A stretch of DNA of 48,283 nt, taken from the NCBI GenBank assembly GCA_030648285.1, contig JAUSIC010000003.1:1-48283 (forward strand), read 5' to 3'. The DNA is from Nanobdellota archaeon. Its GTDB lineage: Archaea > Nanobdellota > Nanobdellia > Pacearchaeales > GW2011-AR1. Below are positions 1,374 to 44,066 of the stretch, piece after piece (the first letter of the stretch is position 1; each line of letters begins with the position of its first letter). The position numbers and the translations under genes were made by a program. Under the pieces are notes generated by a model. It made no database searches, was not told the DNA's origin, and saw only the letters and a list, made by a program, of their open reading frames with translations.

Positions 1374-1826
1374 ATGAACAAGAAATTTTCAAAACATTGG
1401 AAGTCAAGCAGAAAACCAAGAAAACAAAGAAAGTACATAGCAAAAGCTCCGATTCATATAAAGAGAAAAATGCTTCATGTTCAGTTGTCAAAAGAATTAA
1501 GAAAAAAGTATGGAATAAGGAATATAACAATAAACAAAGGAGACACTGTAAAAGTCATGAAAGGGAAATTCAAGAAAAAACAAGGAAAAGTAACAGAAGT
1601 GAATACAAAAAGACTAAGAATATTTGTTGAAGGAGTTCAAGTAAGAAAACAGGATGGAAGCAAAGCAAATGTTTTCATAAGACCTGCGAACTTGCAAATT
1701 GTTGAATTAAATCTTGAGAAGAAAAGAAGCAAGATTGAAAGAATGAAAAAAGAAACCAAAGAAAAAGTAAAAGAAGAAAAAACAGAAAGCAAAGTTAAAG
1801 AAAAAATCACGGAGGAAAAGAAATAA
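1374..1826 (+). CDS. rpl24: 50S ribosomal protein L24 (uL24)
   Basis: KOW motif GDTVKVMKGKFKKKQGKVTEVN; start taken as ATG 1374 (MNKKFSKHWKSSRKPRKQRKY). Confidence 0.92.
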   Translation: MNKKFSKHWKSSRKPRKQRKYIAKAPIHIKRKMLHVQLSKELRKKYGIRNITINKGDTVKVMKGKFKKKQGKVTEVNTKRLRIFVEGVQVRKQDGSKANVFIRPANLQIVELNLEKKRSKIERMKKETKEKVKEEKTESKVKEKITEEKK

Positions 1827-1876
1827 TGACAGAACTAAAGTTCAGCACAAATAAAAATTCGGGAGAATTTTCATAA
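1826..1876 (+). other. Leader micro-ORF (16 aa, MTELKFSTNKNSGEFS*) coupled to S4e by TAATG
   Basis: Starts in the TAATG overlap with the L24 stop and ends in the TAATG overlap with the S4e start; 3' half resembles the leader at 28561-28659. Confidence 0.65.
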
Positions 1877-2517
1877 TGACACACTTGAAAAGACAGCAAT
1901 CACCAAAGAGCTGGCCTGTTGTAAGAAAAGGAACAAAATACTTAGTAAAACCCAAATCAAATGGAATTCCAATGCTTATAATTTTAAGAGACATGCTTGA
2001 AGTTGCACAGAACAGAAAAGAAGTAAAGAGGGCAATCAACATGAAAAATATTCTATTGAATCAAAAACAAGTGAAAGATGAAAAAAACAGCGCTGTTTTA
2101 TTTGATACAATAAGTGTTATTCCTACAAAGAAGAATTACAGGATAACTTTCTCTGAAAAAGGAAGATTTCAGCTTGATGAAATAAAAGAAAATGAAACAA
2201 ACAACAAGATAGCAAAAATAATCAACAAGAAAATGCTCAAAGGAAAGAAAACGCAAATTAATCTTAGCGATGGAAGAAATTTCTTGTCTGACTTGAAATG
2301 CAATGTAAATGATTCTGTATTAGTAAATCTAAAAGAAAAGAAAATAGAAAAATGCATTCCATTAAAAGAAAAATCAAACATCTTTGTATTTGAAGGAAAA
2401 CACGTTGGAAAACAAGGAATAATTGAAAAGATAATTCCAGAACAAAAAATGGTTGAAGCAGATGTTAAAGGAAATAAAATTCAGGTTTTAATTAAACAAC
2501 TTATGGTAATAGAATAA
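1876..2517 (+). CDS. rps4e: 30S ribosomal protein S4e
   Basis: MTHLKRQQSPKSWPVVRKGTKYLVKPKSNGIPMLIILRDML..., KOW-like VFEGKHVGKQGIIEKI. Confidence 0.95.
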   Translation: MTHLKRQQSPKSWPVVRKGTKYLVKPKSNGIPMLIILRDMLEVAQNRKEVKRAINMKNILLNQKQVKDEKNSAVLFDTISVIPTKKNYRITFSEKGRFQLDEIKENETNNKIAKIINKKMLKGKKTQINLSDGRNFLSDLKCNVNDSVLVNLKEKKIEKCIPLKEKSNIFVFEGKHVGKQGIIEKIIPEQKMVEADVKGNKIQVLIKQLMVIE

Positions 2518-5866: not shown

Positions 5867-5971
5867 ATGACAGAAATAGGAAATTTCACTGCAGACAAGA
5901 AGTCAGCCGTTCGTTCGTCAAAGCCGAGCGACAGCACAAATACAAAATCGGCATGGAGGTATTTTGCATAA
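5867..5971 (+). other. Leader micro-ORF (34 aa, MTEIGNFTADKKSAVRSSKPSDSTNTKSAWRYFA*) coupled to S5 by TAATG
   Basis: ATG 2 nt after the L18 stop; GGAGGT near the 3' end; TAATG overlap with S5; 76 nt identical to the leader at 28584-28659(-); last ~35 nt identical to the prefoldin leader. Confidence 0.75.
5943..5966 (+). promoter_or_regulatory. Putative SD-presenting hairpin CAAAAT-(12 nt with GGAGG)-ATTTTG before S5
   Basis: 6-bp inverted repeat flanking the SD; same layout in other leaders. Confidence 0.45.
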
Positions 5972-6732
5972 TGGCAGAAGAAAAAACAGAAGAACAAATC
6001 AGCCAGGAAATGCTGGAAAAAGAACTTGAAAAAGAAATAATAGAAAAACAAGTAGTAGAAAGAAGCAAAGAAGAAATGGAGAGGGATGACAAGATTGCTT
6101 CTTGGGTTCCAAAAACAAAACTTGGAAGAGAAGTAAAAGAAGGAAAAATCAAAAAAATAGATGAAATTCTTGATGCTAAGCAAAAAATCTTAGAAGAACA
6201 AATTGTTGAAAAATTGCTTAATCTAAAATCAGATTTAATTTCAATTGGGCAATCAAAAGGAAAATTCGGTGGAGGAAAAAGAAGAGCCTGGAGACAAACT
6301 CAAAGAAAAACAAAAGAAGGGAATGTTCCGACTTTCTCAACAATGGCTGTTGTAGGAGATGGAAATGGGCATGTAGGAGTAGGCATGGGAGAAGCAAAAG
6401 AAACTCTTCCTGCAAGAGACAAAGCAATAAGAAAAGCAAAAATAAATATTATAAAAATTATCAGAGGATGCTCAAGTTTTGATTGCAATTGTTCTGAACC
6501 TCACACAATTCCATTTCAAGTAGAAGGAAAATCAGGAAGTGTAAGAATAACCTTGATTCCAGCACCTCAAGGAACAGGATTAGTTATCGGAAATGAATTG
6601 AAAAAAGTATTAAAACTCGCAGGAATTAAAGATGTATATAGCAAGACATTTGGAAGCATTAGAACAACTTTTAATTTTGTTCAAGCTTGCATGGATGCCT
6701 TGAAGAAAACAAACCCAATTTATAGAAAATGA
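5971..6732 (+). CDS. rps5: 30S ribosomal protein S5 (uS5), extended N-terminus
   Basis: VGDGNGHVGVGMGEAKETLPARDKAIRKAKINIIKI...; start assigned to ATG 5971 behind GGAGGT rather than ORF-track start 5953. Confidence 0.95.
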   Translation: MAEEKTEEQISQEMLEKELEKEIIEKQVVERSKEEMERDDKIASWVPKTKLGREVKEGKIKKIDEILDAKQKILEEQIVEKLLNLKSDLISIGQSKGKFGGGKRRAWRQTQRKTKEGNVPTFSTMAVVGDGNGHVGVGMGEAKETLPARDKAIRKAKINIIKIIRGCSSFDCNCSEPHTIPFQVEGKSGSVRITLIPAPQGTGLVIGNELKKVLKLAGIKDVYSKTFGSIRTTFNFVQACMDALKKTNPIYRK

Positions 6733-10079: not shown

Positions 10080-10157
10080 ATGAAAAATAGGAAATTTTCC
10101 AATGTCCTCAGCATGAAACCTGCAGATACAAAATCGGCATGGAGGTATTTTGCATAA
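10080..10157 (+). other. Leader micro-ORF (25 aa, MKNRKFSNVLSMKPADTKSAWRYFA*) coupled to prefoldin by TAATG
   Basis: 3' ATACAAAATCGGCATGGAGGTATTTTGCATAATGG is identical to the S5 leader. Confidence 0.7.
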
Positions 10158-10558
10158 TGGAAGAACCTAATGAACAAGAAAAACAAGAACTAATGATGAA
10201 ACTAGGATTTTTCGAACAGCAAATAAGACAAATTCAGCAACAAATTCAGGCAATTGAACAAGGAATTGTTGAAATGACTTCATTAAATTCAGGACTTGAA
10301 GAATTACAAGGCAAAAAAGATGCAGAAATTCTTGCTCCAATTGGAAGAGGAATTTATGCTAAAGCAAAGTTACTTTCAGAAGAATTGATTGTCAATGTTG
10401 GAAGCAATAATCTTGTGACAAAAGGAATTTCTGAAACAAGAAAACTCATTGAAAGCCAGATTCAAAAACTAGAAGAAATCAAAGTTGAAATGAATAATAA
10501 TCTTGAGAATTTAGGAAAAGAAATTGAAAGTGTAATGGGTGAAAAGCACGAACATTAA
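10157..10558 (+). CDS. pfdA: Prefoldin alpha subunit
   Basis: Coiled coil–beta–coiled coil protein; LAPIGRGIYAKAKLLSEELIVNVGSNNLV; start ATG 10157. Confidence 0.88.
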   Translation: MEEPNEQEKQELMMKLGFFEQQIRQIQQQIQAIEQGIVEMTSLNSGLEELQGKKDAEILAPIGRGIYAKAKLLSEELIVNVGSNNLVTKGISETRKLIESQIQKLEEIKVEMNNNLENLGKEIESVMGEKHEH

Positions 10559-15101: not shown

Positions 15102-15158
15102 ATGAGCAAACAGGAAATTTGCCACAAATACAAAATAGATAAGAGGTATTTTGCATAA
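15102..15158 (+). other. Leader micro-ORF (18 aa, MSKQEICHKYKIDKRYFA*) coupled to the MraY-like gene by TAATG
   Basis: Fills the gap between STT3 and the next gene; GAGGTATTTTGCATAATGG 3' end shared with other leaders. Confidence 0.7.
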
Positions 15159-16150
15159 TGGAAATTATACTGGTAATTCCCCTTCTTCTAAGCTTTTTAA
15201 TGGCTTTATTTTTAATGCCGTTTTGGATTAAAAAAGCTAAAGAGATTGGGCTTGTATGGGAAGATATGAACAAGCCAGAACATCCAAAGAATGTTGCTGG
15301 TTCTGGAGGGGTTGCAGTATTTTTAGCATTTATACTAGGAGTTTTAACATATATTGCCATAAAGACATTTTACTTCAAATCAAAAGATAATCTAATAGAA
15401 ATTTTTGCTTCTTTGAGTGTTATCTTGGTAATTTCATTTATTGGAATTTTAGATGATTTGTTAGGATGGAGAAAAGGAGGATTATCTGCAAAATCAAGAC
15501 TGGCTTTGTTATTGTTTGCATCTATTCCTTTGATTGTAATAAATGCAGGAGAATCAAATATATTTGGAAATGTAGAATTAGGATTGATATATCCTCTGGT
15601 TTTTATCCCTCTCGGAATAATTGGAGCATCAGCAACCTTTAATTTCTTAGCAGGTTATAATGGATTGGAAACAAGCCAGGGAATATTGATATTATCCAGT
15701 CTTTCATTAATAACATTTACAACAGGAGAAAAATGGCTTTCAATAATTATTTTATGCATGGTTGCTTCTTTAATTCCTTTTTATCTTTTTAATAAATATC
15801 CTGCAAAAGTTTTTCCAGGGAATATAATTACCTATTCTGTAGGAGGTTTAATTGCAATGATAGCTATACTTGGAAATTTGGAAAAAATTGCTATCTTCTT
15901 TTTCATCCCCTATATCTTAGAAACAATCCTGAAAGTTAGAGGAAAATTAAAAAAACAAAGTTTTGCAAGGGTAAATCCTGACGGAAGTTTGGAAGTGCCT
16001 TATGAAAAAATTTATGGGTTGGAACATTTGGCAATATTTATTTTAAAAAAGGTAAAAAAGAAGGTTTATGAGAAAGATGTTGTTTATCTCATAAATGGGT
16101 TTCAGATATTTATAATAATATTAGGAATGATATTATTCTGGAGACCTTAA
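15158..16150 (+). CDS. MraY/WecA-like phospho-sugar polyprenyl-P transferase (GT family 4 type)
   Basis: Multi-TM; PEHPKNVAGSGG...FIGILDDLLGWRKGGLSAKSRL...NFLAGYNGLETSQG. Confidence 0.88.
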   Translation: MEIILVIPLLLSFLMALFLMPFWIKKAKEIGLVWEDMNKPEHPKNVAGSGGVAVFLAFILGVLTYIAIKTFYFKSKDNLIEIFASLSVILVISFIGILDDLLGWRKGGLSAKSRLALLLFASIPLIVINAGESNIFGNVELGLIYPLVFIPLGIIGASATFNFLAGYNGLETSQGILILSSLSLITFTTGEKWLSIIILCMVASLIPFYLFNKYPAKVFPGNIITYSVGGLIAMIAILGNLEKIAIFFFIPYILETILKVRGKLKKQSFARVNPDGSLEVPYEKIYGLEHLAIFILKKVKKKVYEKDVVYLINGFQIFIIILGMILFWRP

Positions 16151-16152
16151 TA

Positions 16153-16356
16153 ATGAGCAAACAAGAAATTAAATTCGCGACCTCACTAATATGGATTAAA
16201 CGTGAAATCGCTCACCACAAATACAAAATCGACAGGAGTGAATGGAAACGAACAGGAAGTTCATTTCACGCTCTTTTTCAAAAAGTGAATGACAAGAAAG
16301 AAACATTATTTTTAGGAAAAAATAACGAAGAAAAATATCGGAGGTATTTTGCATAA
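16153..16356 (+). other. Expanded leader micro-ORF (67 aa, MSKQEI...KYRRYFA*) coupled to the UPF0104 gene by TAATG
   Basis: Same MSKQEI start and RYFA* end as 15102-15158; internal CACAAATACAAAATCGACAGGAG; GGAGGTATTTTGCATAATG at 3' end. Confidence 0.65.
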
Positions 16357-17297
16357 TGAAAATTAGAAAACTTTTGCCTATAATAGGAATTTTAATCTTT
16401 CTGTACATTTTAATAAGATTAGATATAAGAAAAGTCTTATTAGAAATCAGCCAGGCAAAAGTAAATTTTCTGTTAATTGCTGTATTATTCATTTTCATTT
16501 CCTTTTTAACAGAAACATTAAAATGGTTTTCAATAGCAAGAGTGCAAAAAACTAATATTCCTTTTTTTAAGGCAGTAAAAGTAAATCTAATCAGTTCTTT
16601 TTATGGATTCATAACTCCTTCAAAAGTGGGGGGGGTAATACGTGCAAAATATTTGAAAGAATACAACAACAATGTCGGAAAAGGAGTTGGAAATTTTATA
16701 TTGGACAAGGTTTTGGATGTATGTTCCTTAGTGTTTTTAGCAATATTATTTTCTTTTGTGTTTAGAGAGTTTCTTCCAATTAATTTTTTCTATTACTCAA
16801 TTGCCCTGCTTTCATTGATGATAATATTTCTATTCATCTTTTTTGATATGAGGAAGAGCAGATTTTTTCTAAAGATAGTCTATAAAAGATTCATTCCAAA
16901 GAGATGGAAAGAAAGAGCAAGAAAAGAATTTTATTCTTTCTATGAAGATATGCCTAAAAAAAGATATTTTTTCCTATTTTTTCTCTTAAACATTCTTAAT
17001 TGGATTGTCTTATATTCTATAAGCTTTTTTATTGGAAAATCTATTGGAATAAACCTCTCTTTCTTTTATTTCTTAGCAATTCTTCCAATAGCTACTTTAG
17101 TTGCACAGATACCAATAACAATCTCTGGATTAGGTACAAGAGAGGCAATCTTAATCACTTTATTCGGATTAGTGGGAATTGATAAAACAAAAGTATTTTC
17201 AATGTCCATGATAAATCTGTTCATAGGAGCTGTTATTCCTTCTGCAGTAGGTTGGATTTTAAGTCTGAAAAACAATAAAAATTATAAACAAACCTAA
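16356..17297 (+). CDS. Lysylphosphatidylglycerol synthase TM-region/UPF0104 flippase-like membrane protein
   Basis: Polytopic; VNLISSFYGFITPSKVGGVIRAKYLKE...ITISGLGTREAI. Confidence 0.85.
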   Translation: MKIRKLLPIIGILIFLYILIRLDIRKVLLEISQAKVNFLLIAVLFIFISFLTETLKWFSIARVQKTNIPFFKAVKVNLISSFYGFITPSKVGGVIRAKYLKEYNNNVGKGVGNFILDKVLDVCSLVFLAILFSFVFREFLPINFFYYSIALLSLMIIFLFIFFDMRKSRFFLKIVYKRFIPKRWKERARKEFYSFYEDMPKKRYFFLFFLLNILNWIVLYSISFFIGKSIGINLSFFYFLAILPIATLVAQIPITISGLGTREAILITLFGLVGIDKTKVFSMSMINLFIGAVIPSAVGWILSLKNNKNYKQT

Positions 17298-22676: not shown

Positions 22677-24116
22677 ATGAAACTAGTTTTAATTGAACCT
22701 AACATCCAAGGATACGCACTAATGCCCACAATGTCTCTGGCAATACTAAAATCATACATAAATGAGAAAAGCAGGCATAATGCAAGAGTAATAGACTTGA
22801 TATTTCATAAAAAAAATTGGAAAGAATATTTAAGCGAACAGATAAAAGAATTAAAACCTGATTTAATAGGAATGTCTGTTTTAAGCTTCAATTATCTAGC
22901 TGCTTTGGAAATTGCCAAGTTCATAAAGGAAAAATTTGGAACAAAGATAATATTCGGGGGCGTGCACGTAATTCTTTCTCCAGAAGAGGTTATAGAAAAT
23001 AAAGATGTGGATATAATCTGCACAGGAGAAGGAGAAGAAGTATTAAAGAATCTTTTGGATAAAAAACTAAATTGCAAAGATGTGAAAGGGATATGGTATA
23101 AAAAAGAAGAAAAAATAATCAAAAATCAAAAAATAAAACTGATAGAAAACTTGGACAGTATTCCGTTTCCAGATTGGAGTGATTTTGACTTAAAAAAATA
23201 TTTTTTGATAAGCGGAAACAATCTTCCGATAATGGGTTCTCGCGGATGTCCTTACCAATGCACGTACTGCAGTAATCATGCATTAAGAGAAAATTTGATT
23301 GGAAAATATGTAAGATTCAGAAGCGTGGACAACATAATAGAAGAAATAGAATTGAGAATAAAGCAATACCACAACAAGGGATTCAAATATCTATTTTTTT
23401 ATGATGATACTTTCATAATGTACAGAGATTTTGTCTTAGAATTTTGCAGGAAATTCAAAGAAAAAGGGTTTCATAAAAAAATAAAATGGAACGTGAATGT
23501 AAGGGCAAATCTCGTTACAGATGAAATAATAAAAGCAATGAAAGATGCAGGATGCTATGAAGTAAGAATGGGAGTTGAAGCAGGAAATGATTACATAAGA
23601 AATGAAATCTATAAGAGAAATATGTCTGAAAAGCAAATTTTTGATGCTATTAAAATAATTAAAAAATATGGGTTGCAACTAAGACTGCAGTTCATAATTG
23701 GCGCTCCTTATGAGAACCTTGATATGATGAATGAAAGCTTTGAAATGGCAAAAAAATCAGAAGCAGATTATGTCTTGTTTCCTGTCTTAATTCCTCTTCC
23801 TTCGACAAAAATGAAGGAACTTTGCGAAGAAGAAGGAGTCATTGAAAGAAAGAAATTCAAAAGTTCGCATGAAATGTTCACTAATCCTGTTGTAAGAACA
23901 AAATTTGTGTCAAGAAAAGAAATCAAAAATTTTGTCAATAAAATAAGAATGTACCAGGTTAAAAAATATTTTTTAGAAGGATTAAAGTTAAGAGGCTTAA
24001 TCTTTGTAAAAGATTCCTTGATTTTTTTTGTCTATTACAAGAGAAAATATGATTTGGAAATAGATAACATTTTCCGTTTTACAATAAATAAATACAAGCT
24101 TGAGGATTTAAAATGA
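22677..24116 (+). CDS. B12-binding-domain-type radical SAM protein
   Basis: IIFGGVHVILSPEEV..GEGEE; GSRGCPYQCTYCSNHAL. Confidence 0.93.
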   Translation: MKLVLIEPNIQGYALMPTMSLAILKSYINEKSRHNARVIDLIFHKKNWKEYLSEQIKELKPDLIGMSVLSFNYLAALEIAKFIKEKFGTKIIFGGVHVILSPEEVIENKDVDIICTGEGEEVLKNLLDKKLNCKDVKGIWYKKEEKIIKNQKIKLIENLDSIPFPDWSDFDLKKYFLISGNNLPIMGSRGCPYQCTYCSNHALRENLIGKYVRFRSVDNIIEEIELRIKQYHNKGFKYLFFYDDTFIMYRDFVLEFCRKFKEKGFHKKIKWNVNVRANLVTDEIIKAMKDAGCYEVRMGVEAGNDYIRNEIYKRNMSEKQIFDAIKIIKKYGLQLRLQFIIGAPYENLDMMNESFEMAKKSEADYVLFPVLIPLPSTKMKELCEEEGVIERKKFKSSHEMFTNPVVRTKFVSRKEIKNFVNKIRMYQVKKYFLEGLKLRGLIFVKDSLIFFVYYKRKYDLEIDNIFRFTINKYKLEDLK

Positions 24117-25513
24117 GTCAATTAAAAGTTCTATTAATTCAACCAAATTACAGAAGAATCTATGCATACGCAAAAAACAAAGAGATTACTCCTATTTTTC
24201 CTCCATTTGGACTTGCTTATATCGCAGCAGTATTGAAAAAAAATAATATTCCTGTTAAGATATTAGAATCAAATGTTTTTGATTTAAATCATGAACAGAT
24301 AAAAAAGGAAATTGAGGAGTATAATCCCAATATTGTTGGAATTACTTCTACAACTTCAATGATTGAAGAAGCTCATGAAATCGCCCTGCTTTGTGACGAG
24401 AAAATAAAAGTAATAATAGGGGGAGTTCATGCAAGTTCTCTTCCAGAAGAAACACTGGAAAAATTCGAGAGATTTGATTTTTTAGTAAGGGGAGAAGGAG
24501 AATTTGCAATGCTGGAACTTGTTCAAAAGAAACCCTTGGAGAAAATAAAAGGGTTATCTTACAGAAAAAATGGGAAAATAAAACATAATGCTCCAAGAGA
24601 ATTAAACAATCAACTCGATGAACTCCCTTTCCCTTCGAGAGAACTTTTGCCAATGGATAAATATTTCAGCGCAGGAGCAAAACAAACACCAAGCGATTAC
24701 ATACTCAGCTCGAGAGGATGCCCTTACCAATGCATTTTTTGTGCAGACCATCTTGTCCATGGAAGAAAATTTAGGTTTAGAAGCCCTGAAAATATAATTA
24801 AAGAAGTCGAGGAACTCCATAAAAGAGGGGTGAAAGACTGGGATTTTATCGATGATAATTTCACTTTAATTAATGAAAGAGTTGAAAAATTCTGCGATTT
24901 GATGATACAAAAAGGACTAAATAAAAAAATGAGCTGGAGATGTGCAAATGGAATAAGAGTTGACAGGATAACTCTTGAATTATTGAAAAAAATGAAAGAA
25001 GCAGGCTGTTACATGGTTTCTCTTGGAATAGAATCTGGAAATGAAGAAATTCTAAGAAATATGAAGAAAGACATTAATCTAGAAAAAGTTAGAATGGCTG
25101 TTAAATGGTGCAATGAAGTCGGAATTGAAACAAGAGGGTTATTCATGTTTGGTAATCTCGGGGAAAATGAAAAAACAATGCAAGACACAATAGATTTCGC
25201 AAAAAGCCTTAATTTAGATACAGCATCCTTTCATATAACAATTCCTTTTCCAAATACAGAATATTGGAACATTGTAAAAAAAGAAGGAGAAATATATCCA
25301 AAGAATTATAGGGATTATATTGCATATGGAAACGTTATCTTCAAGCACGGAGAACTGAATGAAAAAACATTATTAAAAATGCAAACGAAAGCATTCAAGG
25401 AATTTTATTTCAGGCCAAAAATAGTTTTCAAGGCTTTGAAAAGCATGAATTCTCTTAGAAAAATAAAAGTTTACTTTAATGCAGGAATTGCTTTTCTTGG
25501 AATAAATAAATGA
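24113..25513 (+). CDS. B12-binding-domain-type radical SAM protein
   Basis: IIGGVHASSLPEETL..GEGEF; SSRGCPYQCIFCADHLVHGRKFRFRSPENI. Confidence 0.94.
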   Translation: MSQLKVLLIQPNYRRIYAYAKNKEITPIFPPFGLAYIAAVLKKNNIPVKILESNVFDLNHEQIKKEIEEYNPNIVGITSTTSMIEEAHEIALLCDEKIKVIIGGVHASSLPEETLEKFERFDFLVRGEGEFAMLELVQKKPLEKIKGLSYRKNGKIKHNAPRELNNQLDELPFPSRELLPMDKYFSAGAKQTPSDYILSSRGCPYQCIFCADHLVHGRKFRFRSPENIIKEVEELHKRGVKDWDFIDDNFTLINERVEKFCDLMIQKGLNKKMSWRCANGIRVDRITLELLKKMKEAGCYMVSLGIESGNEEILRNMKKDINLEKVRMAVKWCNEVGIETRGLFMFGNLGENEKTMQDTIDFAKSLNLDTASFHITIPFPNTEYWNIVKKEGEIYPKNYRDYIAYGNVIFKHGELNEKTLLKMQTKAFKEFYFRPKIVFKALKSMNSLRKIKVYFNAGIAFLGINK

Positions 25514-26932: not shown

Positions 26933-28511
26933 CTAAAATTGGTTGATTGTCCTGTTGATAACCCTGAACAGGAAACCATGTATCATTATGAACCATTGGA
27001 TAATTTACCATCCAATCATCATGTTTCTGAAATATTGACAAAATTAAAAACTTTGGTTTTTCTTTATTTACAAATTCATCAAAGCTTGTTTCATTGAAAT
27101 AATCCCCGCTATGACTTTCTGGATTTTTAAATCCGTCATCAAATGTTCCTGTTCTTCTTTCGGAATAATAAGAAATCTGTGGGAAGCTCTGGGTTATAAT
27201 TGTATCATCAATATTTGAATGCTGTTTTATCCATTCTCCTGCAAGTTTAAGTTCATAATAAGAACTCTTTTTACTTTCTGTTAGCTGATAACCCCAAACT
27301 AAATTAGGTATAAGACTAGCAACTAGAATAATTAAAATCAAAATAGCAATAACTTTTTTATTTATCTTCAGATGCTTTTCTACTAGTTTTCCTAATTCAA
27401 AAAGAGGAATCGCAGCAATCATAAACAAGAAGGGATGCTGCATTAAGGTATATCTCTGCTGAGCAGTCGGATCCATTTGCATATAGCCTAATACCAAAAG
27501 AGGAAGAGCTATCCAGAGAAAAACAAATAACTTGCTTTGAATTGTCTTGTTTTTGAATATCTTGTCAAATCCTAAAAAAAGATCTGCAAAGAAATAAACA
27601 GCACCGATTATAAACAATATGAATATCGGAAGAGTCAGATTATATGGCAAATCCAAGAAGTAAATAGGCCAGTTTACAACAGAAGTTCTCGCTACTGGTG
27701 CAGCTGCTGTCTTGATAATACCCAAGTCATAAGAGAGTATATCTATCAGAGGATTTCCAAAATGCTTTGCATAAACAATAAAATGAGGCACTAAGGCTAA
27801 GGCAAATATTAAAAGAGTAATCCACAAAGATTTATTTTTTAGAAACTTAAACTTTTCTTTAATAAAAGCAAGTACGAAAAACATTGGAAGAACCATTAGG
27901 TTCTGCATTCTGATTAAAACAGATACAGCAAGGAAAAGTCCAGACAAGTACAGATATTTTTTTCCCTTTTCCATTTCATATCCTTTCCAAAAAAGAAACA
28001 AAGTCAAAAGAATAAAAAAAGTAGAAGGTATATCTGTCATTGTTCTTCCTGTGAAGAAAAAAGCAACCCATGAAAAAGTAAGTCCTATTGCTGTGAATAA
28101 GGCATATTTTTTATTGAACATGTCCCTGACTAAAAAATAAGAAACTGCGATAATTCCTGTTGAAAACAAAACTTCTGAAAATCTTATTCCAACTTCCCCT
28201 AATCCAATCTTAAAAAATAAGGCTCCAAATAATGGCCACAAAGCTCCTCTTCTGTAATACCACAAATCAGTCATATTACCAACACCTGCCCATAATTTAG
28301 CAGTAGACATGTATTCTGCACCATCAAACCACATTGCCTGGTCTTTTGTTATAAAAAAGACTACAACCCTAATAACAAATGCTAAAATTAAAACTCCAAT
28401 AAATGCCTTATCATAATTATCTTGAACCCAAGAAAATAGTTTTGTTTTTATTGTCTTTTTTCTTTCTTCAATAATTTTTTCTTCTGATTTAATTGCTATT
28501 ATTTCTTCCAT
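26907..28511 (-). CDS. GT39/PMT-like polytopic glycosyltransferase (dolichyl-phosphate-mannose-type)
   Basis: ~12 TM; DQAMWFDGAEYMSTAKLWAG; YYRRGALWPLFGALFFKIG. Confidence 0.85.
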   Translation of the reverse strand: MEEIIAIKSEEKIIEERKKTIKTKLFSWVQDNYDKAFIGVLILAFVIRVVVFFITKDQAMWFDGAEYMSTAKLWAGVGNMTDLWYYRRGALWPLFGALFFKIGLGEVGIRFSEVLFSTGIIAVSYFLVRDMFNKKYALFTAIGLTFSWVAFFFTGRTMTDIPSTFFILLTLFLFWKGYEMEKGKKYLYLSGLFLAVSVLIRMQNLMVLPMFFVLAFIKEKFKFLKNKSLWITLLIFALALVPHFIVYAKHFGNPLIDILSYDLGIIKTAAAPVARTSVVNWPIYFLDLPYNLTLPIFILFIIGAVYFFADLFLGFDKIFKNKTIQSKLFVFLWIALPLLVLGYMQMDPTAQQRYTLMQHPFLFMIAAIPLFELGKLVEKHLKINKKVIAILILIILVASLIPNLVWGYQLTESKKSSYYELKLAGEWIKQHSNIDDTIITQSFPQISYYSERRTGTFDDGFKNPESHSGDYFNETSFDEFVNKEKPKFLILSIFQKHDDWMVNYPMVHNDTWFPVQGYQQDNQPILVIYQANYN

Positions 28512-28561
28512 TACATAAAATCTCCTATTTTATGTTTGTGGCAAATCTCCTGTTTGCTCAT
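28511..28561 (-). other. Leader micro-ORF 2 (16 aa, MSKQEICHKHKIGDFM*) coupled to the GT39 gene by TAATG
   Basis: Reverse strand ATGAGCAAACAGGAGATTTGCCACAAACATAAAATAGGAGATTTTATGTAATGG; related to 15102-15158. Confidence 0.7.
28513..28535 (-). promoter_or_regulatory. Perfect 9-bp hairpin ACATAAAAT-AGGAG-ATTTTATGT with SD as loop
   Basis: Exact inverted repeat; AGGAG is the whole loop; start codon is immediately downstream. Confidence 0.7.
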
Positions 28562-28659
28562 TATGAAAATTCTTCTGAATTTTTATTTGTGCTGTCGCTC
28601 GGCTTTGACGAACGAACGGCTGACTTCTTGTCTGCAGTGAAATTTCCTATTTCTGTCAT
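28561..28659 (-). other. Leader micro-ORF 1 (32 aa, MTEIGNFTADKKSAVRSSKPSDSTNKNSEEFS*) coupled to micro-ORF 2 by TAATG
   Basis: First 76 nt identical to 5867-5942; 3' end AAAATTC-AGAA-GAATTTTCATAATG matches the S4e leader layout. Confidence 0.75.
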
Positions 28660-40001: not shown

Positions 40002-41528
40002 ATGAAAAAGAATAAAATACTGTTCTTGAAGGCAAGAACAGGTATGGATGACCCTTCTCCTCCTATGTCATTTAGTTTTCTTGGACGCATTGCAGAAGAA
40101 GAAGGTTTTGAAGTTCTTGTTGAAAATTTAAATGCGCAGTATAATGAAAAGACAAACGAAGATATTGTGGAATTGATAAAAAAAGAAGAACCGACAATTG
40201 TGGGAGTTCATATCTTCACTAATGCTGCAAAGTATTCTTATGAATTAATGAAAAAAATTAAGCCTTATTGCAAATTATTGATTGTTGGGGGTCCACACCC
40301 GACAATATGTCCTGAAGAAACACTTGAAATGGGAGCAGACGTTGCCTTTGTTGGAGAAGCAGAAATTTCGTTCAGAAAATTCTTAAAAAATATAAAGGGC
40401 AACAAAAGCCTGAAAAATTTAAAGGGAATTGTATTTCAAGATAATAAAAAGATAATAAAAACAGGAAAAGAAGAAGTAATTTTTGATTTGGACAAAATTC
40501 CAATACCAGATAAAAGGTTTAACAGAAAATCTGATTATATAAAAATAAAAGATGAGATAAATAATTTTGGGCAGATTTTATCCACAAGGGGATGTCCTGG
40601 GAGATGCACATATTGTTTTTCTCTGTTCAGCAAATGTTACAGATATATGTCTGCTCAGAAAGTTTTTGAGGAGATAATGGATTTGAAAAAGACTTATGGA
40701 ATAAACTTCATTAACTTTATTGATGATGCATTTACAATCAACAAGGAAAGGCTTATTGAACTCTGTGATTTGCTCATGGGTAAAAACATTGAATGGTCTT
40801 GTGCAACAAGGGTTGATTTTCTTAATAAAGAATTAATAATTAAAATGGGAAAAGCAGGTTGCAAAATGATAAACTTCGGAGTTGAAAGCGCGCTTCCAGA
40901 GACATTATTGAAAATGAAAAAAACAGCCAATCCAAAATGGTATGTTGAGCACACAGATAATCTTTTAAAATGGTGTTATGAAGAAAAAATAAGAGTTGCT
41001 GTGAATATTTTAACTGGATTTCCCTGGGAAACAGCAGAAGGCATGAAAGAAATGCAAAAATACATCAATAAAACAAAAAAATATGTGACTTCTGGATTTT
41101 ATGGGGGAATTCTTCAACCACAGCCAGGCACAGAGATGTATACAGAATATGCAAAAGAATATGGTTTTGAAAAATGGTGGCTTCAAAAAAGATCTATATT
41201 CAAAGATGATTACAGGCCTTTTTTCATGGCATATTATCACCAATATTGGGATCATCTTCAAAATAATTTTTTCAATTTTGATAAAGACAAATTCAGGGAA
41301 ATAGACAAGCTTTACAAACTAATGGGGAAATGGAACCTCTACATTTTTACCAAGAGAAGATTTAAGAATCCATTCATAATTCAATTTATTTATCAGGGGT
41401 TATTTCTTTTAAGCAATATTTCAATAATACTATACAAATTATCTCCAAGATTAGAAAAAAGAATACTAGAGAGAATTAAAAAATTTGGTTACAAGTTTAA
41501 GTTTAGAAAAGGAAGTGAAGAATTATGA
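40002..41528 (+). CDS. B12-binding-domain-type radical SAM protein
   Basis: IVGGPHPTICPEETL..VGEAEISF; STRGCPGRCTYCFSLF. Confidence 0.94.
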   Translation: MKKNKILFLKARTGMDDPSPPMSFSFLGRIAEEEGFEVLVENLNAQYNEKTNEDIVELIKKEEPTIVGVHIFTNAAKYSYELMKKIKPYCKLLIVGGPHPTICPEETLEMGADVAFVGEAEISFRKFLKNIKGNKSLKNLKGIVFQDNKKIIKTGKEEVIFDLDKIPIPDKRFNRKSDYIKIKDEINNFGQILSTRGCPGRCTYCFSLFSKCYRYMSAQKVFEEIMDLKKTYGINFINFIDDAFTINKERLIELCDLLMGKNIEWSCATRVDFLNKELIIKMGKAGCKMINFGVESALPETLLKMKKTANPKWYVEHTDNLLKWCYEEKIRVAVNILTGFPWETAEGMKEMQKYINKTKKYVTSGFYGGILQPQPGTEMYTEYAKEYGFEKWWLQKRSIFKDDYRPFFMAYYHQYWDHLQNNFFNFDKDKFREIDKLYKLMGKWNLYIFTKRRFKNPFIIQFIYQGLFLLSNISIILYKLSPRLEKRILERIKKFGYKFKFRKGSEEL

Positions 41529-42907
41529 CAAGATTAGTTTTAGTCAATGCTGGGAAAAATTATGAATATGGGGTTCATGAACCAATAAACTTGCTATGTC
41601 TAGCAGCTTACGCAAAAAAATTTGGGCATGAGGTCTTCATAGCAGACCAGCTTGCAGGAGAAAATGTTTTCAGAAAAATAAAAAAACTTAACCCTGATTT
41701 TGTAGGGATAACAGGAACAACTGCAGTCATAACTGATGCATACGAAATAGCAGACTGGTGCAGAAAAGAAAAATATAAAGTAATCTTGGGCGGAGTACAT
41801 GTCAGTGTCATGCCTGAAGAAGCATTAAGACATGGAGATTTTGTTGTTGCAGGAGAAGGAGAAGATGCATTAATAAAAATACTTGAAGGAAAAGCAAAAA
41901 AAGGCATTGTAACAGGAAAAGTAATAGAAGATTTAGATTCTTTGCCTAAGATTGACAGGAGCATGATAAATATGAGATACTATCAAGCAGGAAAAGATAG
42001 AAATCCTGGCTCTCATCTTCATTTTGTTCCCTCAAATACAAAACTCAATTCAATGCTCTCAACAAGAGGTTGCCCTTATAATTGCATTTTTTGCCATAAC
42101 AGCTGGAGAGGGCTTAGAGTTAGAATAAATTCTGCTAAACATATAATAGAAGAAATGAAAGATTTGAAAGAAAAATATGGAACAGAAGCAATTTTTTTCA
42201 TGGACGATGATTTGCTATTTAATAAAAAAAGGGTTTACGAGTTCTGTGAATTATACAAGAAAGAAAAACTCAATATAATCTGGGGTTGCTCTGCAAGCGT
42301 GAATTCAGTTGATGAAGAGATTTTAAGAGCCATAAAAGAGATAAATTGCAAGCAGATAATGTTCGGGCTTGAATCTGGAAATGAAAGAATCTTAAAAATG
42401 TTAAAAAATGGGATTGCAACAATAGAAAAAAACAAAAGTGCAATTCTCCTTGCAAAAAAAGTAGGGATATTTGCTACAGGAAATTTCATGATAGGAAATC
42501 CTACTGAAACAGAAGTAGAAGTTATGGATTCAAAGAGGTTTATTATAGAAAATGACTTGGAAGGATTTGGAGTAACTATATCCACACCATTACCGGGGAC
42601 AAAGTTATGGGACATGTTTAAAGAACAAGGAGCAATTCCTAAAGATATAGACTGGAGAAAGTTCAATACAAATAAATTAACATTCAATTTAAGCAAAATA
42701 TCAAATGAAAGATTAGACGAACTATGGAGGGAATTCTTGAACCTTACTCTTGAAAGAAATGCACAAACCTCCCCAAAAAGATTATTAAAAGTTGCATTAA
42801 AACATCCTGACAAAGCAATCAGAAGATTCATCTATAATCCTAAATCTGTATTAGTTCTGGTAAAAAAGATGTTTAAACAAAAGTATGAAAAAAATAAAAA
42901 TAATTGA
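41525..42907 (+). CDS. B12-binding-domain-type radical SAM protein
   Basis: ILGGVHVSVMPEEALRHGDFVVAGEGEDA; STRGCPYNCIFCHNSW. Confidence 0.94.
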   Translation: MTRLVLVNAGKNYEYGVHEPINLLCLAAYAKKFGHEVFIADQLAGENVFRKIKKLNPDFVGITGTTAVITDAYEIADWCRKEKYKVILGGVHVSVMPEEALRHGDFVVAGEGEDALIKILEGKAKKGIVTGKVIEDLDSLPKIDRSMINMRYYQAGKDRNPGSHLHFVPSNTKLNSMLSTRGCPYNCIFCHNSWRGLRVRINSAKHIIEEMKDLKEKYGTEAIFFMDDDLLFNKKRVYEFCELYKKEKLNIIWGCSASVNSVDEEILRAIKEINCKQIMFGLESGNERILKMLKNGIATIEKNKSAILLAKKVGIFATGNFMIGNPTETEVEVMDSKRFIIENDLEGFGVTISTPLPGTKLWDMFKEQGAIPKDIDWRKFNTNKLTFNLSKISNERLDELWREFLNLTLERNAQTSPKRLLKVALKHPDKAIRRFIYNPKSVLVLVKKMFKQKYEKNKNN

Positions 42908-44066
42908 AATTTCTCATTCTTCTGAGTCTTATTCTTTAGGAGAAGGTGAAAAAGAACTGAAAAAACTTGTCATAAATGACTGGCCTGCAAGAGTTTCTAA
43001 ACAAATAAAGAAATTTTATCCTGAAATTGAAGTTGAATGCTGGGCTCCTGAAAAGATATACAAGGAAGAAAAGAGATTCCAAGAATTTGGAGTATTATTC
43101 AAGTTTTTTCCAACTACTTTTGCTTTGAGATATGCAATGGATTTTTCAATTCCAATGATAAAGGAACTAAAAAAAGAAGTTGAGAAAAGCAAAAAAGAAA
43201 ATTACAAATTAATTATTCATTTCCACGAGATTCATAACATTCATGGTTTAACAATAGCTACATTGTTCAAGAATGAAAATGTGATTGTCCAGCATCATGG
43301 GGGAAGCAATCCAATGAAGCATCTCAAGGGAGCAAGAATGAAAAAATTTCTTTTTCCTTTATTACTTTTTGGACAATTATGGGAAAACAAGGTTTTGAAG
43401 AATATAAAATATTATTACACTCTAAGCGATTATGAGAAGATATATTTGAAAAAAACAGCTCCAAATTCAAGGCTGAAATTTCAAACAATGGGTATTGAAG
43501 AAGAATATTTTAAAAATACAGACAAAAAGGTTGCAAGAATAAAATTGAAATTGCCTAAAGATAAAAAAATAATTCTTTTCATAGGAAAAGTTGACAGGAT
43601 AAAAGGAATGGATTTATTATTAGAGGCTATGAAAGATTTGAGAGACATAGAATTGAAAATAATTGGATTCGGACCTCAAGAACCAATATTCAAAAAATAT
43701 GTGAAAGAAAATAATTTAGATAATGTGGAATTTTTAGGCGGTGTTTTTGGAGAAAAGAAAATGTTATATCTAAGCAGTGCTGATGCTTTTGTCCTTCCTT
43801 CAAGAAGAGAAGGAGCACCTGTTACTGTAATGGAAGCATTATCAAGAAATACTCCTGTTGTTGTAAGCGATGTTGGAGGGGTTAAGCTAATGATAGAGAA
43901 CAACAGAGAAGGAATAATAATAAGACAGAACAATGTGAAAGACATTGTAAATGCATTAAGAAAAATTTTAAGATGGAAAAAGAAAAATGTGAGGCAATAT
44001 GCAAGAAAATATGAATGGAAAAAAATAATTGATGAAACTGTAAGAGATTACAATGAAATTAAATAA
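42885..44066 (+). CDS. Glycosyltransferase family 4
   Basis: IILFIGKVDRIKGMDLLLEAM...ADAFVLPSRREGAPVTVMEALSRNTPVVVSDVGG. Confidence 0.93.
   Translation: MKKIKIIEISHSSESYSLGEGEKELKKLVINDWPARVSKQIKKFYPEIEVECWAPEKIYKEEKRFQEFGVLFKFFPTTFALRYAMDFSIPMIKELKKEVEKSKKENYKLIIHFHEIHNIHGLTIATLFKNENVIVQHHGGSNPMKHLKGARMKKFLFPLLLFGQLWENKVLKNIKYYYTLSDYEKIYLKKTAPNSRLKFQTMGIEEEYFKNTDKKVARIKLKLPKDKKIILFIGKVDRIKGMDLLLEAMKDLRDIELKIIGFGPQEPIFKKYVKENNLDNVEFLGGVFGEKKMLYLSSADAFVLPSRREGAPVTVMEALSRNTPVVVSDVGGVKLMIENNREGIIIRQNNVKDIVNALRKILRWKKKNVRQYARKYEWKKIIDETVRDYNEIK

Follow-up and report, generated by a model that had tools for sequence, protein, structure and literature searches.

Dispersed micro-ORF cassettes at gene start codons in a Pacearchaeota genome

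Introduction

The window analysed here is a stretch of 48,283 nucleotides that forms contig C5 of a Nanobdellota archaeon genome (G000). It raises the question of what the short, mutually related open reading frames are that stand directly in front of several of its unrelated genes, and how these genes could be translated with such an element on their start codon. Inserted DNA is usually tolerated because it is spliced out (introns, inteins), fused in frame (Rickettsia palindromic elements, RPE) or bypassed by the ribosome. G000 is a 622 kb assembly in 25 contigs, is 85% complete and was assessed as stretches totalling 621,528 bases. One MAG per species was considered, and every cassette-bearing genome is a MAG.

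Seven cassettes in the window

Translation and Pfam assignment confirm the claim of a preliminary description of this DNA that seven micro-ORFs precede six unrelated genes, the stop of each overlapping the next ATG as TAATG. The genes are assigned to S4e, S5, prefoldin, Glycos_transf_4 (MraY-like), LPG_synthase_TM (UPF0104) and PMT_2/PMT (GT39). The rpS4e cassette (1826–1878, forward strand) consists of a micro-ORF at 1826–1876 (peptide MTELKFSTNKNSGEFS) and the gene ATG at 1876–1878, and its 3′ stem pairs 1854–1860 with 1865–1871 around the loop GGGA (1861–1864). The rpS5 cassette (5867–5973, forward strand; micro-ORF 5867–5971, peptide MTEIGNFTADKKSAVRSSKPSDSTNTKSAWRYFA, gene ATG 5971–5973) is a long form with two additional hairpin modules. 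Its 5′ hairpin GAAAT-AGGAA-ATTTC (5873–5887) is inferred from the sequence and from stem compensation between copies, and its 3′ hairpin CAAAAT-(CGGCATGGAGGT)-ATTTTG (5943–5966) holds the Shine–Dalgarno (SD) sequence GGAGG (5955–5959) within the loop. Also on the forward strand are the cassettes of prefoldin (10080–10159; micro-ORF 10080–10157, peptide MKNRKFSNVLSMKPADTKSAWRYFA), of the MraY-like Glycos_transf_4 gene (15102–15160; micro-ORF 15102–15158, peptide MSKQEICHKYKIDKRYFA) and of the UPF0104 gene (16153–16358; micro-ORF 16153–16356). The last is the longest, with additional hairpin modules and a peptide of 67 aa ending in EEKYRRYFA. The PMT/GT39 gene, on the reverse strand, follows a tandem pair, the first at 28561–28659 (MTEIGNFTADKKSAVRSSKPSDSTNKNSEEFS) and the second at 28509–28561 (MSKQEICHKHKIGDFM). 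The second ends on the gene ATG at 28511 and has the stem CATAAAAT-AGGAG-ATTTTATG. The module TGTCCTC..CCTGC.GATAC of the prefoldin cassette recurs in the relatives G183, G025 and G171.

The S5 cassette and the first PMT/GT39 cassette have 88 nt in common at 97% identity. The block GAGGTATTTTGCATAATG, allowing up to three mismatches, has four matches in the window, all of them exact, with 0.15 expected. A covariance model run with filters off recovers six window copies at E ≤ 3.3e-6 and the segment 16323–16358 at E = 0.45, and finds no other convincing copy in the window. Elsewhere in the window, ORF pairs at 22677–25513 and 41525–44066 have mutually similar DNA (GGAGAAGGAGAA.., GAATCTGGAAATGAA..) and by eye are radical-SAM-like paralogues.

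Copy number and placement in the genome

G000 carries about 45–49 cassettes, nearly all of which end at a gene start in the same orientation as the gene. This is the outcome that the preliminary description had anticipated when it proposed a scan of the complete genome for copies placed exactly at start codons. The block TTTTGCATAATG occurs 36 times (reversed-pattern control 0), and a sensitive self-BLAST yields 49 clusters (E ≤ 1e-4), including a few that are unrelated sequences or no more than bare fragments. Placement was tested with blocks that do not include the start codon, a tandem copy being counted through to the next gene. All 28 G000 occurrences of the internal 13-mer CACAAATACAAAA and all 29 of AAATACAAAAT.G lead to a T[AG]ATG that opens a frame of at least 30 codons on the same strand. 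Covariance-model matches terminate at an ATG in 33/33 and 18/18 cases, and this ATG nearly always opens a gene.

Cassettes are about 47–206 nt long. The exceptions in G000 are an intergenic copy that is apparently dead, with TAG in frame (C15:48781), a module fragment (C17:12872), two copies with TAAAGATG in place of TAATG (C16:23754 and C16:54178) and a variant with GGAGGTCATTTCAAATG (C9:23294). In G183, 15 of the 18 model matches on contig C3 are on the forward strand, compared with 318:243 for long ORFs, a possible replication-strand bias.

The target genes have no function in common. Beyond the window, those of G000 include the ribosomal proteins L16/L10e, S3Ae, L1, S3, S27a and S9, a proteasome subunit, two SecD/SecF proteins, a T2SSE-type ATPase, an Rpb11-like RNA polymerase subunit, a metallo-β-lactamase fold (tRNase Z-like) protein, Nre and DNA polymerase subunit B. 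A RuBisCO large-chain gene (PF00016/PF02788; C6:13592, locus L037) has a long-form cassette.

The uS3 gene bears a cassette in four genera (G000, G183, G171 and G087), of a different subtype in each, which could mark a hot spot or, alternatively, an ancient insertion that has since turned over. In G171, five genes within a single 15 kb stretch containing ribosomal proteins have cassettes, and at loci L113, L114 and L117 two or three hairpin units form head-to-tail chains (ATACAAAACAGGAAATTTTGCATAATGATAAAAAACAGGAGTTTTTCATAATG).

Hairpins and the Shine–Dalgarno loop

From 5′ to 3′ the cassette is composed of an ATG, a 5′ hairpin, optional hairpin modules, a 3′ hairpin with an SD loop and CATAATG. 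The sequence blocks reported earlier do recur, but the covarying hairpins to which they belong had been missed. The 'AGGAAATTT box' near the ATG is present and corresponds to the loop and 3′ arm of the 5′ hairpin, and the 'CACAAATACAAAAT ... ATTTTGCATAATG' blocks include both arms of the 3′ hairpin. The 5′ hairpin takes the forms GAAAT-AGGAA-ATTTC, GCAAA-CAGGAAA-TTTGC, AAAAA-TAAA-TTTTT, GAAC-TAAC-GTTC, GAAAC-AGAA-GTTTC and others. Its stem varies by compensation among copies and its loop sequence is not conserved. A perfect stem of at least 5 bp is found in 68% of 79 copies compared with 6% of mononucleotide-shuffled controls. The optional modules are exemplified by GAAC-AGGAA-GTTC with flanks GTGAA/TTCAC, identified by eye and from folds.

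The 3′ stem was evaluated in a 36-sequence cross-genus alignment made without fitting to structure. Stem cells are paired in 87.7% of cases versus 36–54% in slid controls, and two-sided changes number 21 versus 4.5 after shuffling. The closing pair forms in 72 of 88 (versus 53.5), and in the CATAAAAT...ATTTTATG form the outer pairs are U-A/A-U/C-G instead of the C-G/A.C/U-A of the common form. An SD-like 3′ loop is present in 83 of 88 cassettes, and the 16S 3′ end GGATCACCTCCT, which contains the anti-SD, is present. By a crude scan of ordinary long ORFs in G000, an SD-like motif lies within 20 nt in 31% of those in operons and in 24% of the remainder. The 3′ loops of the G000 subtype are 11–12 nt long, those of nearly all others 4–9 nt, and the G171 subtype forms AAAAAC..GTTTTTC chains. 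An Rfam search with the cassette gave no matches.

The reading frame is maintained, the peptide is not

Identical cassette DNA is read as ..STNTKS.., ..AQIQN.. or ..HKYKI.. depending on the copy, so that all three frames are used. The mosaic halves behind the peptide types of the preliminary description are real, but the peptide itself is not conserved. To quantify this, 74 copies from several genomes were split at a common internal block. The half lengths modulo 3 cover all phases (left 26/24/24, right 28/25/21), and the phases of the two halves are complementary in 69 of the 74. The frame is open from the ATG to TAATG in 68, compared with a mean of 24.0 and a maximum of 39 on random re-pairing (5000 trials). 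A few cassettes are thus without an open frame. In three G000 copies in which TAA or TAG cuts the MSK frame, either an internal ATG (MVKRFFA or similar, then a stop) or a longer frame, read by eye at C7:23190, again reaches TAATG. Selection thus acts on translation of the cassette and not on the peptide, with the reservation that translation itself is inferred, as there are no ribosome-profiling or expression data. No conserved peptide was found in the cassettes.

Insertion at the original start codon

Relatives without the cassette show what preceded it. In most relatives with a readable rpL18–rpS5 junction, the L18 stop is followed by a few bases and the ATG of S5. The junction reads gaaaaataaa and then ATGGCAGAAAAG in G025, whereas in the window the same gaaaaataaa is followed by ATGACAG...TTTTGCATA and then ATGGCAGAAGAA. 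For S4e, the empty site of G183 joins GGAGGAAAAGAAATA to ATGTCACACCTAAAAAGACAG, compared with GGAGGAAAAGAAATA, ATGACAG...TTTTCATA and ATGACACACTTGAAAAGACAG in the window, and the 16 nt left flank is identical in both. The MraY-like Glycos_transf_4 gene has a syntenic empty site in G183, at +1 nt from the upstream stop in both genomes. Within one genus, a cassette precedes MTASDW.. in G182 and is absent from G183, with an SD context (ttcgaGACGGAG / ttcgaAACGGAG) in the same place.

Over 67 filled/empty comparisons, the 16 nt preceding the micro-ORF agree with the empty flank at 8.25 positions; shuffled pairs give 7.36 (at most 7.91 in 200 shuffles) and the element end 6.76. The signal comes from the best-conserved sites. 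For 25 filled/empty pairs that share the upstream gene, we compared how far its stop lies from the micro-ORF ATG in the filled site and from the gene ATG in the empty one. The two distances agree to within 9 nt in 19 pairs, although the search span was only about 60 nt and some loci are counted twice. The most parsimonious interpretation is that the cassette was inserted precisely at the original start codon, leaving the old upstream context in front of the micro-ORF, but loss is not strictly excluded. The element had been described as intercistronic; it is a cassette, but one that sits at the original start codon and not merely between cistrons. Four G000 genes also have a cassette in G183, always with a different internal make-up, which points to turnover by recombination or to repeated insertion.

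Of the 45 G000 copies, 29 begin between −7 and +35 nt from the stop of the upstream gene, many at −4, −1 or +1, and eight of these have an SD before the micro-ORF. A simple motif scan finds a TATA-like box 18–45 nt upstream of 14 of the remaining 16, as in leaderless transcripts. The micro-ORF therefore appears to inherit whatever started the gene. A preference of the cassette for SD-less genes is not supported (SD in 8/29 versus 37/120 in the background).

Distribution

Related cassettes are found in about 20 genomes from 11–13 genera of a single Pacearchaeota family, and the proposed scan of related genomes thus did find them in other genera. Examples among the Pacearchaeota/Nanoarchaeota MAGs are GW2011_AR19 (G171), STB_23 (G183) and RBG_19FT_COMBO_34_9 (G179). 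The hairpin pattern matched 20 of 200 genomes of the order (control 0), a few single matches being chance-like. The covariance model with strict filters matched 19 of 180 genomes, all from one family and 11 genera, with up to 33 matches per genome, and in 371 genomes of the phylum it found nothing outside the same family. A gapped hairpin pattern run against 85,462 bacterial and archaeal species gave no match outside Pacearchaeota/Nanoarchaeota records, one match labelled just 'archaeon' being placed here in the same family. A long exact pattern had no matches in GTDB genomes, but it is too specific to the G000 subtype and its own genome was possibly left out. G000 and G171 each have their own subtype, which indicates lineage-specific amplification.

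Interpretation and alternatives

The data show where the cassettes lie, their orientation and their precise boundaries, as well as the open frame, the covarying hairpins and the SD loops. We consider it probable that these features describe a dispersing start-codon cassette that is translationally transparent, akin to a natural bicistronic design working by termination–reinitiation, although translation is inferred and there are no transposition data. Termination–reinitiation is experimentally known in archaea (PMC6728339), and translational coupling through hairpin unfolding is established (PMC12548453). The criteria are matched by the frame that remains open to the overlapping start (68/74) and by the SD-like loops (83/88) together with the anti-SD in 16S rRNA. 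The ribosome that formerly started the gene, whether upstream-coupled, SD-led or leaderless, would start on the micro-ORF instead and unfold the cassette hairpins as it translates. It would then terminate at the UAA of UAAUG and reinitiate at the AUG that overlaps this stop, aided by the SD over which it has just moved. That downstream translation proceeds via the micro-ORF is an inference resting on the established biology of termination–reinitiation, of coupling by unfolding of hairpins and of synthetic bicistronic elements (PMC5995908). Restart on the gene AUG would make the insert translationally transparent, so that copies could accumulate before essential genes. Copies appear to spread and recombine within lineages by a route that has not been identified. 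Copies are nearly lacking from intergenic DNA, where they would do no harm, which argues either for targeting of start codons or for a benefit at starts. Whether the host gains from the added SD or merely tolerates it remains open. We lean, by a small margin of belief, towards a mobile DNA element directed at start codons that escapes the notice of selection by being translated, bringing along a start, a stop, an SD hairpin and a restart of its own. The ability of the cassette to sit before essential genes without silencing them belongs to this reading and shares its slight preference.

The hairpins might instead be a cis-regulatory leader of the host, bound by a cellular RNA-binding protein or responsive to the state of translation, with cassettes recruited into a regulon. 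Covarying hairpins with GGA-type loops, several ribosomal-protein or translation/secretion targets and the occurrence at uS3 in four genera would fit. We nevertheless think this unlikely, because target functions are mixed (RuBisCO, proteasome, SecD/F, pilus ATPase, glycosyl transferases), most orthologues lack the cassette, the 5′ loop sequence is not conserved, and there is neither a CsrA (PF02599) nor an Rfam match. A somewhat smaller chance is given to a selfish or neutral element that inserts without regard to starts and survives only where its frame and SD keep the gene translated. It would explain a frame kept whatever the peptide, the tandem and mosaic copies and the lack of an obvious benefit, but non-coding DNA away from starts, where insertion would be equally harmless, is essentially without copies, suggesting targeting or benefit.

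Coupled gene pairs commonly show stop–start overlaps with intragenic SDs (PMC6728339), and ordinary operon spacing could in principle produce such overlaps by convergent evolution. The long identity between copies (88 nt, 97%), the family-limited distribution and the clean empty sites already refute this, as the preliminary description had held. Nor is there any realistic prospect of an assembly artefact: only MAGs show the cassette, but the same design recurs as different subtypes in intact gene contexts in many independently assembled MAGs. The spreading, recombining cassette proposed initially is thus upheld by the number of copies (about 45–49), the other genera of the family, the mosaic halves exchanged with the frame kept and the precise empty sites. 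The delivery of a translation-initiation module, part of the same proposal, is supported as well, with boosting of initiation and a dedicated mobility mechanism unproven.

Comparison with known systems

The translation mechanism of termination–reinitiation is itself already known. In the Haloferax pairs for which it was shown (PMC6728339), a stop–start overlap and an SD in the upstream frame are likewise present, but both cistrons are ordinary genes; in the present case a repeated insert without a conserved peptide takes the place of the upstream gene. Synthetic bicistronic design uses a leader cistron of fewer than 20 codons with SD2 in its 3′ end and a stop overlapping the next start (PMC5995908, citing Mutalik 2013). 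It is man-made, while the cassettes are natural, dispersed, hairpin-rich and multi-copy. RPEs are short dispersed palindromes with an ORF in unrelated genes (PMC10969869), but the peptide they encode is conserved, and many of them lie in frame within ORFs and so alter the protein. An RPE-type in-frame insertion is rejected for the cassette, which is a separate cistron at the start codon, its stop overlapping the gene ATG, and has no conserved peptide. In class 1 integrons, ORF-11 of attI1 and short attC ORFs are tiny ORFs on a recombination site that raise translation of the next gene by termination–reinitiation (PMC8876359). ORF-11, however, occupies a single fixed site in each integron and requires arrays built by the integrase; the cassettes showed no integron context, the integrase family being outside the search. 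The bypassing inserts of Magnusiomyces mitochondria are also numerous, short and tolerated by the ribosome (81 positions, PMC5009743), but they are skipped inside ORFs, whereas the cassettes are inferred to be translated and restarted from. REP/RAYT elements and MITEs resemble the cassettes as short, non-autonomous hairpin repeats that spread by copying; they differ in that the cassette genome has no Y1 transposase, no target duplication was found and the position is the start codon. An attenuator leader peptide is rejected, since there is no conserved peptide and the target genes are unrelated.

Within the open-access literature, the combination of start-codon residence, an obligate but non-conserved ORF and restart occurs in no described family that we found. 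The earlier statement that no named family matches accordingly stands: no published description was found in open-access full texts (subscription papers and preprints lie mostly outside) and Rfam has no match. If the reading is correct, restart is a further way to make inserts tolerable. The cassettes then supply bicistronic translation elements for archaea that are natural, present in many copies and tested by evolution, and comparative data alone could show the requirements of termination–reinitiation. It is puzzling how inserted DNA could locate start codons in archaeal genomes that are among the smallest. Gene-calling programs easily mis-annotate both the micro-ORFs and the true starts that follow them.

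Candidate routes of spread

Of the mobility enzymes sought, Y1 transposase and reverse transcriptase, neither could be linked to the cassettes. IS200/IS605 or REP/RAYT activity is rejected, as the Y1 transposase is absent from G000 and from 13 of 15 relatives searched. For a MITE reading, the search for an autonomous transposase covered Y1_Tnp only, which is absent from G000 (assembly 85% complete). Viral carriage is rejected, with no matches for two patterns among IMG/VR viral contigs. A CsrA-like regulon or CsrA/RsmA leader is likewise rejected, PF02599 being absent in nine genomes with a positive control. A reverse transcriptase gene (G000 C16:47648–48652, reverse strand; locus L056, 47648–49611) adjoins a protein that by eye has a DGR-variable-protein-like C-terminus. 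Retro-mobility is rejected, since this reverse transcriptase looks like that of a DGR and none was found in the cassette-rich G183 and G171.

No target-site duplication beyond the common ATG was detected, flank similarity not exceeding that of shuffles in most tests; a 6 nt duplication test was marginal (p = 0.03, one among several tests). At G000 C25:10074 and G171 L116, the first 12–15 nt are common to the micro-ORF and the gene (ATGGTTGAAACA; ATGGAAATAAAAAAC). This could be a target duplication, but over all copies it is not significant. Another hairpin repeat, TTCACCCATATGTTTGGGCGAGAAGCTGAAATCGCTC, is present in G000 at three intergenic sites (C16:50389, and C20:8508 and C25:7860 on the reverse strand). 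It resembles a module inside the cassettes at C14:10212 (reverse strand) and C2:17405, and cassettes may pick up local repeats.
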